From: Actinomycetes bacterium
GTDB lineage: Bacteria; Actinomycetota; Acidimicrobiia; Acidimicrobiales; RAAP-2
Reading direction: 5' to 3'
Length of the DNA stretch: 64,000 nt
Assembly: GCA_021806045.1 (NCBI GenBank)
Contig: JAJZDI010000013.1
Location: 1 to 64,000 of the forward strand
Made by a program: the position numbers and the translations under genes. How positions within the stretch are numbered: position 1 is the first letter of the stretch; every line of letters begins with the position of its first letter. Positions 49,471-55,614 of this stretch are shown piece after piece. Under the pieces are notes generated by a model, which saw only the letters and a program-made list of their open reading frames with translations, was not told the DNA's origin and made no database searches.

Positions 49471-49734
49471 ATGACGCTCGACCCGTTGCTGCTCGAGGTA
49501 CTGGCATGCCCCGAGGACAAGGGCCCGCTGTGGTACTTCGCCGCTGAGGGCTTCCTCTACAACCCCCGGCTCCGGCGGGCCTACCAGGTCCGTGACGGCA
49601 TCCCGGTGATGCTGGTCGACGAGGCCCGCGACGTCGATCGCGCCGAGCACGAGCGCCTGGTGGCCCGGGCCGAGGCCGGCGACGTCCCGACCACCGGTCC
49701 CGCCGGCCCGGACGGCGGCGGGGCCGGTCGATGA
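49471..49734 (+). CDS. Trm112 family protein
   Basis: 87 residues. LLEVLACPEDKGPLWYF, EGFLYNPRLRRAYQVRDGIPVMLVDEA is the bacterial Trm112/YcaR pattern; only one Cys is present, so the zinc site of eukaryotic Trm112 is absent. Such proteins can support methyltransferases; here the link to sugar metabolism is positional only. GAGAGGA precedes ATG 49471; the stop overlaps the next ATG. Confidence 0.85.
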   Translation: MTLDPLLLEVLACPEDKGPLWYFAAEGFLYNPRLRRAYQVRDGIPVMLVDEARDVDRAEHERLVARAEAGDVPTTGPAGPDGGGAGR

Positions 49735-50780
49735 CGGGCGGGTACGCCTCGCCGCTGCCCGTCGACTCGCTCGACATGTGGGGAGCCACCGCCGCGCTGC
49801 CCGAACAGGTGGCGGCGGCGGCGGACGCGGCGCGTGGCCTGGGCGGCCTGCCCAACCGCGACGTCATCGAGCACGTCGTCGTGCTCGGCATGGGCGGGAG
49901 CGGTATCGCCGGCGACGTCCTGGTGGCGGCGGCGGCGCCCTTCATGCCGGTGCCGGTGACGGTGGTCAAGGGCTACGAGCCACCCGACTTCGTGGGAACG
50001 GGGACGCTGGTCTTCGCCATGTCGTTCTCGGGCGACACCGAGGAGACCCTCGAGGCGGCGGGCGAGGCTTACGAGGCGGGAGCGTCCATGGTGGTGGTGG
50101 CGAGCGGGGGCAGCCTGGCCCGCCTGGCCGACGAGTGGAAGGTGCCCTTCGTGCCCGTCCCCGGCGACATCCCCCAACCGCGTGCCGCGCTGGGGGCCAT
50201 GGCCGTGCCGCCCCTCATGGCGCTGGAGGAGATCGGGCTGTTCCCCGGGGCGGGGCGGTGGGTCGACCTGGCCGTGGCCCAGCTCCGGCGCCGCCGGGAC
50301 CAGCTGGTGGCGTCGGGGAGCCTGGCCGAGCGGGTGGCGGCGCAGATCGCTCGGACGATCCCGCTGGTGGTGAGCTCGCAGGCGCTGGGGGCGGCCGCCG
50401 CACTCCGATGGAAGGCGCAGATCAACGAGAACGCCAAGACCCCGGCCTTCTGGAACGTCCATCCGGAGCTGTGCCACAACGAGGTCGCCGGCTGGGCCCA
50501 GCTGGGGGACGTGACCCGTCAGGTCGTGTCACTGGTGAACCTCCGCCACGACGCCGAACATCCCCAGGTGGCCCGCAGGGTGGCGCTGGTGACGGAGGTC
50601 CTCTCCGAGGTGGTCGCCGGGGTGGTCGAGGTGGTGGCCGAAGGCGAGGGGGACCTGGCCCAGCTGTTCGACCTCGCACTGGTGGGGGACTTCGTCTCCC
50701 TGCACCTGGCCGCCGCTGAGGGCGTCGACCCGGGTCCGATCCCCGTGCTGGCCGAGATCAAGGCCCGCCTGCGCACCTGA
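49731..50780 (+). CDS. bifunctional phosphoglucose/phosphomannose isomerase (SIS domain)
   Basis: 349 residues, two SIS domains. VVVLGMGGSGIAGDVL, FAMSFSGDTEETLEAAGEAYEAGA (phosphosugar-binding Ser) and a C-terminal domain with NENAKTPAFWNVHPELCHNEVAGW (catalytic Glu/His region). This is the archaeal/actinobacterial PGI/PMI type that makes mannose-6-P from fructose-6-P, directly upstream in pathway terms of manB. ATG 49731 overlaps the Trm112 stop. Confidence 0.85.
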   Translation: MTGGYASPLPVDSLDMWGATAALPEQVAAAADAARGLGGLPNRDVIEHVVVLGMGGSGIAGDVLVAAAAPFMPVPVTVVKGYEPPDFVGTGTLVFAMSFSGDTEETLEAAGEAYEAGASMVVVASGGSLARLADEWKVPFVPVPGDIPQPRAALGAMAVPPLMALEEIGLFPGAGRWVDLAVAQLRRRRDQLVASGSLAERVAAQIARTIPLVVSSQALGAAAALRWKAQINENAKTPAFWNVHPELCHNEVAGWAQLGDVTRQVVSLVNLRHDAEHPQVARRVALVTEVLSEVVAGVVEVVAEGEGDLAQLFDLALVGDFVSLHLAAAEGVDPGPIPVLAEIKARLRT

Positions 50781-50881
50781 CGGCCGGAGTCCGCTGCAGC
50801 CTGCCGGCCGGGCAGCGGCACCGCCGGCCCCGGTCGGGCAGCACCACCACCGTGTGTCGATCGCGTGACGTCCGTGTGACG

Positions 50882-50900
50882 ACCCCCCTCGGCGGGGGGT
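50882..50900 (+). terminator. 7-bp C/G hairpin
   Basis: ACCCCCC, loop TCGGC, GGGGGGT. It lies 100 bp after the isomerase stop and occupies the -35 region of the next promoter. The 100 bp between stop and hairpin contain no gene that I can see. Confidence 0.5.
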
Positions 50901-50908
50901 GTCGGGCG

Positions 50909-50914
50909 TACACT
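50909..50914 (+). promoter_or_regulatory. -10 box TACACT of the putative structured RNA
   Basis: Predicts transcription starting at about 50921, exactly the first base of the long-range stem. No recognisable -35. Confidence 0.5.
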
Positions 50915-50920
50915 TCTCCT

Positions 50921-51203
50921 GTGCGTCCCCTGCGGGTCTGTGGTTGCAAGTCGATGCCAGTCGCAGGCGAAACGACCCACGTAAGGCAACTCGTGGTTGC
51001 TGAGCATGGTGCGGCTTAGGGGTAAGTCCTGCCCGTCGCGTCCCCGGTGGTCGGGGGCGGGCGGAGACGGGGTGATGCGGGCGCGCAACGGTGCCGCTGG
51101 GTCGGGGCGCGTCGATGACGCGTCGTGGCCGCCGGCCCGTGCCCGTGAGCTCCGCTGCAGGCGAGTGTGGGGTCAAAGACCAGGTCAGCCGCAGGTGGCG
51201 CAC
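50921..51203 (+). ncRNA. putative large structured RNA upstream of hpf (raiA-motif candidate)
   Basis: About 283 nt without a convincing gene. Its first 15 nt (GTGCGTCCCCTGCGG, 50921-50935) pair with its last 15 (CCGCAGGTGGCGCAC, 51189-51203) at 14 of 15 positions, one a G-U. Inside are further stems: GTCG..GCC/GGC..CGAC (50951-50974), CCACG/CGTGG (50976-50996), CCCCG-GTGGT-CGGGG nested in GCCCG/CGGGC (51031-51062), CGCGTC-GAT-GACGCG (about 51108-51122) and GGTC-AAA-GACC (51171-51181). A further hairpin (51207-51231) and CCCGGG-TGCG-CCCGGG (51280-51295) precede hpf. The raiA motif is a known large RNA found upstream of hibernation-factor genes in Firmicutes and Actinobacteria; position and size fit, the consensus was not checked. 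A leaderless 32-codon ORF from GTG 50921 is the competing reading. Confidence 0.5.
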
Positions 51204-51319
51204 GCTGCTCCCCGGCACGGGCCGGAGGAGCGGGGGAGGTGCCGCCGAGCACCCTGACCCGAGCATCGGACCGACGGTGCCCGGGTGCGCCCGGGTGCCC
51301 CGACAGAGGAGGCGAGCAC

Positions 51320-51697
51320 GTGGACGTGATCATCGCGAACGGCAGGAGGACGGTCGAGGACGACGTGCGGGCGCTCGTCGAGGAGAAGGTCGGCCGCCTG
51401 GGAACGCGATGGTCATGGCTGGAGCGGGCCACCGTCCGCTTCGCCGAGGAGCACAACCCGCGGATCGCCGACTGCGAGCGGTGCGAGGTGGAGATGGTCG
51501 GGCACGGCCGGGTGGTGCGGGCCCGGGCGGCGGCGCCGGGCACGCTGGCCGCCGTCGACCTGGTGGTGGAGAAGCTCGAGCACCGCCTGGAGCGGACCAA
51601 GGGGTTGCTGGTCGGTCGGTCCCATCCCCGCCGACGCCCGTCCCGCCAGGCACCCGCCCCCGCTCTCGGGGGGATCAGGGGCGCACCGGCTTCTTGA
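51320..51697 (+). CDS. hpf: short ribosome hibernation-promoting factor (S30AE domain only)
   Basis: 125 residues. MDVIIANGRRTVEDDVRALVEEKVGRLGTRWSWLERATVRFAEEHNPRI...VEMVGHGRVVRARAAAPGTLAAVDLVVEKLEHRLERTKG is the beta-alpha-beta-beta-beta-alpha S30AE fold that binds the 30S decoding site in resting cells. The C-terminal dimerization domain of long HPF, usual in actinobacteria, is absent; a basic Arg/Pro tail of about 25 residues takes its place. GTG 51320 has GAGGAGG 7 nt upstream. The 5' leader contains the putative structured RNA. Confidence 0.85.
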   Translation: MDVIIANGRRTVEDDVRALVEEKVGRLGTRWSWLERATVRFAEEHNPRIADCERCEVEMVGHGRVVRARAAAPGTLAAVDLVVEKLEHRLERTKGLLVGRSHPRRRPSRQAPAPALGGIRGAPAS

Positions 51698-51817: not shown

Positions 51818-52615
51818 CTAGCAGGCGTGGATCGTCACCCGCCAGGTGGCGGCCTCGACATGGGCGTCGAAGTCGACGCCATTGATCGTCCCGCTCACGT
51901 CGTCGTGCGCCGCCCACACGATCGGCGGCAGGGTCGTGACGACTGTCCCGCCGGTCGACTCGCACCCGCCGTTCATCCCGTTGGTCCACTGGACGAGCAG
52001 GAGGAGGTCGGCCGCGTCTTGCGACGTCGGGGACGCCACTGCCACCGGTGGCGAGCTCCGGGCGGTGGCGATGAGCCCGTCGACGTCGGAGGTGAACCGG
52101 GCTGCGGCGGGCGCGCCGTTCGCCAGGGCCCGGAGGAGCTCCTCCTGCACGGTGGGGGAGGGTTCCAGGTACGGGAAGCCCTCCGTGCCGAACCAGCGCA
52201 TGGCGAACCACCGTGAGGCGAGGTCGCTGTAGACGAGGATCGACCGACGCAGGAGCTCGGCCGGGAGCCCCGCGGGGATCGTGGTGGTCACCGGCTCGGG
52301 GTTCGCCGCCTCCACCGCGGCCACGATGGGCGCCGGTACGGGAGACGGCCACGGGGGTCCGGCGCCGTTGATCAACGTGGCCGCTGACCGCAGCCGGGCA
52401 TCGGCCTGTTCGGCGGCCCCGACGAACGCGGCCAGCTGGTCATAGGCGGACGGGCCGGGGCGCGTCGTGGTGGTCGGCGAACGGGGCGCCGATGTGGACG
52501 GCGCCGATGTGGACGGCGTTGAGGTCGACGTTGCCGCGTGAGGCCCCCCGCCCCCGCACCCGGCCAGCCCGATCGACACTGCGAACACCGCCGTGAGCCC
52601 GAGAAGCTTCCGCAC
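51818..52615 (-). CDS. putative lipoprotein of unknown function
   Basis: 265 residues. Signal peptide with lipobox (VFAVSIGLAGCGGGG), a Ser/Thr/Pro linker, then a mainly helical domain (YDQLAAFVGAAEQADARLRSAATLING, VQEELLRALANGAPAAARFTSDVDGLI) and a C-terminal part with two Cys (GGCESTGG and the final Cys). GTG 52615 is chosen because GAGGAGG lies 6-7 nt upstream and it starts directly at the signal peptide. Not recognised. Divergent from secA; 236 bp between them contain a nested hairpin at 52785-52818 and the secA promoter. Confidence 0.75.
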   Translation of the reverse strand: MRKLLGLTAVFAVSIGLAGCGGGGPHAATSTSTPSTSAPSTSAPRSPTTTTRPGPSAYDQLAAFVGAAEQADARLRSAATLINGAGPPWPSPVPAPIVAAVEAANPEPVTTTIPAGLPAELLRRSILVYSDLASRWFAMRWFGTEGFPYLEPSPTVQEELLRALANGAPAAARFTSDVDGLIATARSSPPVAVASPTSQDAADLLLLVQWTNGMNGGCESTGGTVVTTLPPIVWAAHDDVSGTINGVDFDAHVEAATWRVTIHAC

Positions 52616-52836
52616 CGCCGCACCTCCTCGTGCACCGGTCCCTTGGTGTGAGCCAACCCCCCGGGAGGCCCGGATGCCAGGGCACAATGACACCTGGACG
52701 TGGGACGGACCGGGACCGCCCTCCCGTGCGCCCCCTTGCTGGCCGCCGGTGAGCGTGGGTGGCGGACCCCGCCGGTCGGGCGGTGGACGGCGGGCCCCCG
52801 CCCGCAGTCCGGCCGTCCGTCCCGGTGCCCTACCGG

Positions 52837-52842
52837 TAGAGT
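52837..52842 (+). promoter_or_regulatory. -10 box TAGAGT before secA
   Basis: 9 nt before ATG 52852. Confidence 0.5.
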
Positions 52843-52851
52843 GATGGCTCC

Positions 52852-55614
<2,763 letters not shown>

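Follow-up and report, generated by a model that had tools for sequence, protein, structure and literature searches.

A raiA (ModT) RNA gene upstream of hpf in a member of the Acidimicrobiia, and retention of the RNA in relatives without a recognizable HPF

The window is the whole 64,000-nucleotide stretch of DNA that was analyzed. Within it, a phosphoglucose-isomerase-like gene (49731–50780) is separated from hpf, which begins with a GTG codon, by the 539-bp gap (50781–51319) reported in an earlier reading made from the sequence alone. This gap contains a structured RNA and its promoter, and the features of the region are collected in Table 1. Between hpf and secA lies a 291-residue open reading frame on the opposite strand (51818–52693, −), with a signal of lipoprotein type (GLAGCGGGG); it matches no Pfam family. 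A relative of the same genus (G001) is without this extra 1.1 kb, and its secA is found at +553 from the RNA versus +1655 in the window.

Table 1. Positions of the RNA, its structural elements and the neighboring features in the window
Feature	Positions	Strand	Remarks
−10 box TACACT of the raiA RNA promoter (predicted)	50909–50914	+	No conserved −35
raiA (ModT) RNA	50921–51203	+	Rfam core 50927–51197; P1 adds 6 bp at the ends
P1, 5′ strand	50921–50935	+	6 nt outside the Rfam model; pairing and covariation in 75 loci
P3 stem-loop	50950–50976	+	GTCG 50950–50953 with CGAC 50973–50976; GCC 50956–50958 with GGC 50966–50968
Pseudoknot pk-1 (putative)	50959–51016	+	P3 loop 50959–50965 with 51010–51016, 7 bp
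Variable hairpin domain (P7/P8-type region)	51033–51154	+	Exceeds the family consensus length
P1, 3′ strand	51189–51203	+	Pairing and covariation
Shine-Dalgarno site GAGGAGG of hpf	51306–51312	+	Sequence
hpf, short form, 125 aa, S30AE domain only	51320–51697	+	Pfam PF02482, 42.2 bits
−10 box TAGAGT of the leaderless secA promoter	52837–52842	+	Conserved in both locus types
secA	52852–55614	+	Pfam; next conserved gene, adjoining the RNA in relatives without HPF

The RNA is a clear member of the raiA (ModT) family, with a length of about 283 nt. A cmscan search of Rfam matches the raiA model (RF03072) on the forward strand at 50927–51197 with 134 bits (E 7.8e-33), above the curated cut-off of 101.3, and the model is covered end to end (positions 1–209 of 209). 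It is the only match at gathering score in the 64-kb window, and the whole source genome contains a single copy. The sequence-only reading had connected the gap to the raiA motif and proposed the Rfam search, and on both points it was right; its further suggestions of a divergent member or a new class do not hold in view of the score and the full-length match. The large structured RNA that it described is real, as 56 relatives fold alike, P1 pairs, and the single-sequence fold of the window RNA is more stable than that of shuffled sequences (z −2.57). It had assigned the interval 50909–51319 to this RNA, which does lie there but ends near 51203, the remainder being spacer to hpf.

An alignment of 56 relatives contains 75 invariant columns, in line with the highly conserved core of the family, junctions and loops included. 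The variable hairpin domain differs in length among relatives, and in the window the Rfam alignment omits a 63-nt block of it, at a place occupied by 16 nt in the consensus. With OLE, ROOL and GOLLD the RNA shares a large size, an ornate structure and a role that is in trans or unknown, but the window has no Rfam match to any of these.

The promoter of the RNA was compared in 75 homologous loci from the class to which the window belongs, the window included. A TANNNT motif is found 10–25 nt before model position 1 at all 75 loci, compared to 1–2 of 75 in five control windows. No conserved −35 element is seen in the aligned promoters of the RNA, in which the −10 box alone is conserved. The expected start lies about 7 nt past this box, near 50921. 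The RNA is thus predicted from sequence to be transcribed from its own σ70-type −10 promoter, and the box and start proposed earlier agree with this conservation.

The two strands of P1, whose starts are 268 nt apart, pair at 14 of 15 positions (one G-T pair included) with a single mismatch at 50928/51196, exactly the complementarity that had been noticed by eye. This makes the helix 6 bp longer in the source genome than the ends of the Rfam model. P1 positions are paired in 84–100% of the loci (63–75 of 75) by GC, CG, UA and AU types, and this pairing spans the pairs inside the model plus about four beyond its ends, with support fading from the fifth outer pair. Pairing at variable positions exceeds that of partners dealt anew and that of most slid registers, in shuffles that ignore relatedness. 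Moreover, RNAalifold applied to 56 diverse members with no structure given recovers the raiA architecture. Of the 47 predicted pairs, 22 have compensatory changes, and each of the 11 outermost has such changes in 7–25 of the 56 sequences. Covariation, which had been named as a check, is therefore present both in P1 across 75 loci and in the structure predicted de novo.

P3 and a pseudoknot, pk-1, have been described in the cryo-EM structure of raiA RNA (PMC11751092), and P3 of the window RNA was placed by comparison with that description. By our reading of its numbering, the 7-bp pairing between the P3 loop and the downstream strand appears to correspond to pk-1 (PMC11751092). Rfam shows this helix as a nested one. 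RNAalifold pairs 69–75/132–138 are the same helix, and its last pair changes from AU to GC by compensation in 16 sequences. Two loci of one family (f72; L068 in G243 and L072 in G258) have an insertion of about 25 nt in the 5′ part of the RNA, hairpin-like in appearance (GCCGCTCCGTTTCGACGGAGGCGGC), at a GNRA-like turn that follows P1 and is nearly invariant in the other loci.

The gap might instead encode a small peptide, with the structure being secondary, since GTG 50921 opens a frame of 32 codons, and an ATG or GTG is found at that spot in 26 of the 75 relatives. Of the remaining relatives, three have TTG or CTG at this spot and the others no start codon, and early stops interrupt the frame in many. 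A stop codon is shared by 40 homologues, but this is because the RNA core itself contains the TAG. In addition, the compensatory changes track pairing. The sequence-only reading had set conservation of this frame against an RNA; the frame is not conserved among the 75 homologues, and a peptide is rejected as having next to no chance of being the conserved element.

The HPF encoded downstream contains the S30AE domain typical of both short and long forms and occupies the usual place after the RNA. It is of the short form, with a low domain score (42 bits); PF16321, the C-terminal dimerization domain of long HPF, has no match in the source genome. All 13 HPFs that adjoin the RNA in the same family are short (118–127 aa), while several outgroups have the long form. 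The earlier description of this factor as unusually short is correct compared to long HPF, but for this clade the length is normal. The series of long, short and absent forms suggests a gradual erosion of HPF in the group while the RNA stays.

An hpf gene is found 3′ of the RNA on the same strand at 29 of the 75 loci (the window and 28 others), mostly within 35–307 nt. None of these 29 loci has a −10 box 8–25 nt before hpf, and a Shine-Dalgarno site precedes it in 24; the HPF starts of two genomes (G243 and G277) are unreliable, as the domain begins in a partial or mis-started frame. No intrinsic terminator was seen in the window between 50780 and 51340. With neither a promoter of its own nor an intervening terminator, hpf most likely depends on the promoter of the RNA, and it appears to ride on the raiA RNA transcript. 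A ComFC-like phosphoribosyltransferase is adjacent to the RNA only in other families (cluster c20). The hpf/comFC gene order appears to be typical of raiA RNA but not required.

This arrangement, together with the Rfam type of the family (“Cis-reg; riboswitch”), would fit regulation of hpf by a cis-acting riboswitch or leader. However, hpf is missing after the RNA at 46 of the 75 loci, where a regulator of this kind would be expected to keep its regulated gene. The gene found next to the RNA varies, and may be secA, a LuxR-type regulator or miaA. A TANNNT motif lies 14–17 nt before the secA ATG in all loci with an identified secA start, 18 of 18 with HPF and 33 of 33 without, and a Shine-Dalgarno-like site is found at secA in only 2 of the latter 33. 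Since secA has its own leaderless promoter, the RNA and secA are separate units where hpf is missing. The varied neighbors and this separate promoter also disfavor a role of the RNA as a cis-leader of secA. Furthermore, conservation of the RNA is not relaxed in loci without hpf, no intrinsic terminator that could serve as an expression platform is present in 50780–51340, and complementation in trans has been published (PMC11706538). Control of hpf in cis is accordingly considered improbable, and the Rfam type conflicts both with the published complementation and with the loci studied here.

The absence of HPF is not limited to the RNA locus. A PF02482 search at E≤10 was run on the genomes of all 46 loci without hpf, and in 42 of them no convincing HPF domain was found anywhere. 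An HPF encoded elsewhere was detected in one genome (G260, 43 bits), and remote S30AE-like proteins, in frames of 483–628 aa (23–27 bits), in three more (G009, G013 and G014). One of the 42 (G049) gives a sub-threshold match of 18 bits; for the other 41 the search returned either no match or sporadic hits of less than 16 bits within long unrelated frames. A lineage-specific profile built from 23 HPFs was also run on 41 of the 46 genomes. It recovered 6 of 6 positive controls with at least 119 bits and found the HPF of G260, with G009 and G014 giving weak matches; in 38 of the 41, G049 included, nothing above background was seen.

These results make it unlikely that a diverged HPF was overlooked elsewhere in the genomes. 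Oversight at the locus itself is rejected, because the RNA and secA are only 28–137 nt apart at 33 of the loci without hpf. Absence was judged in mostly incomplete assemblies (81–100% complete), but missing contigs are an unlikely cause, as many species agree. By contrast, HPF was found in every one of 50 RNA-bearing genomes sampled from the rest of the phylum Actinomycetota, beyond the class, which indicates that the domain search is sensitive. Four genomes (G009, G013, G014 and G024; e.g. L127, L128 and L129) have frames of about 480–630 aa with two PF16321 domains. These proteins are encoded away from the RNA locus, and three of the four genomes have a remote S30AE domain.

When mapped onto a SecA tree, the presence or absence of HPF requires four changes, at least three of which are forced by well-supported branches. 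In family f1, a clade with HPF that includes the window is separated from a clade of 28 rows without HPF (support 99). In family f31, whose locus does not contain secA, the order is RNA-hpf-miaA in one genome (G222) versus RNA-miaA in another (G300). The changes are read as losses because other lineages, and Bacillota as well, also commonly have hpf beside the RNA. With the direction inferred in this way, HPF has probably been lost about five times.

The RNA itself shows no decay following the loss of hpf. The mean Rfam score is 142.8 at loci with HPF versus 145.4 at loci without (p 0.23, a guide only, as related genomes were treated as independent), and the numbers of invariant columns are similar (86 versus 83). 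Equal conservation of the RNA in the absence of HPF implies that its function does not need HPF. It is likely, in our judgment, that raiA RNA has survived the disappearance of HPF: several lineages, some with small genomes, lost the protein completely but preserved the RNA unchanged together with its promoter and invariant core, which would make the function HPF-free and hpf a passenger on the transcript. Among open papers, we found none on raiA RNA in genomes without HPF.

Alternatively, HPF may be the partner or the target of the RNA, which could for instance serve as a cofactor in ribosome hibernation, with the gene order mirroring a shared complex. The gene is a frequent neighbor, a shared transcript is probable at the loci that have it, and the sampled genomes outside the class always combine the two. 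Against this, about 40 species retain the RNA with undiminished constraint and no convincing HPF. Nor are HPF and the RNA associated within the group, as among the 61 nearest genomes the 20 without the RNA comprise 9 with HPF and 11 without. Such a partnership is therefore thought unlikely, to about the same degree as control in cis. The partner of the RNA could still be a hibernation factor from a different family that has taken the place of HPF.

It has been reported that raiA RNA acts in trans and is very abundant in Clostridioides difficile and C. acetobutylicum, and that in these species it affects the growth transition, sporulation and c-di-GMP (PMC11706538). More than 2,500 species retain the RNA, which can reach an abundance rivaling that of ribosomal RNA (PMC11706538). 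Four orthologs were swapped into C. difficile, one of which, termed Actinomycetota, is that of Acetohalobium arabaticum (PMC11706538). NCBI taxonomy places this organism in Bacillota, and thus no actinobacterial raiA RNA has been tested as far as that study goes (PMC11706538). The window RNA resembles the known family in its full-length match, helices, pk-1, invariant core, place before hpf and own promoter. It differs in that the upstream gene is phosphoglucose-isomerase-like and not comFC, in its longer variable hairpin domain, and in the persistence of the RNA without HPF among relatives, including the sister lineages of the window.

Taken with the published work, it is very probable that the locus is a raiA (ModT) RNA gene that has its own promoter, is read through into hpf, and acts in trans independently of HPF. 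An RNA that does not need HPF fits the published trans-acting role. The transcript would begin at the first base of P1 near 50921, fold into the compact pseudoknotted raiA architecture and run on into hpf, so that RNA and hpf would be made together. The stable RNA body may later be released by processing, or protected, and would then influence, in trans, a process linked to the growth transition, and not through HPF. Family membership, covariation, promoter conservation, the missing hpf promoter and the retention of the RNA without HPF come from the present analysis; trans action and high abundance, like the stability of the RNA, have been published for clostridia only, and we infer the same role in the phylum of the window.

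The name raiA and the gene order suggest ribosome hibernation, and the lineages that have the RNA without HPF are a natural knockout that weakens the simplest partner hypothesis. They also show that, in this phylum, the RNA is an independent gene, in disagreement with the riboswitch label of Rfam. Their small genomes (1.4–2.5 Mb) allow the genes that always accompany the RNA to be listed. Finally, matches to raiA RNA below the gathering score are found in other families of the phylum (G561:C135:14379-14663, 59.9 bits; G512:C122:425-625, 95.9 bits), and these are possible divergent members of the family.
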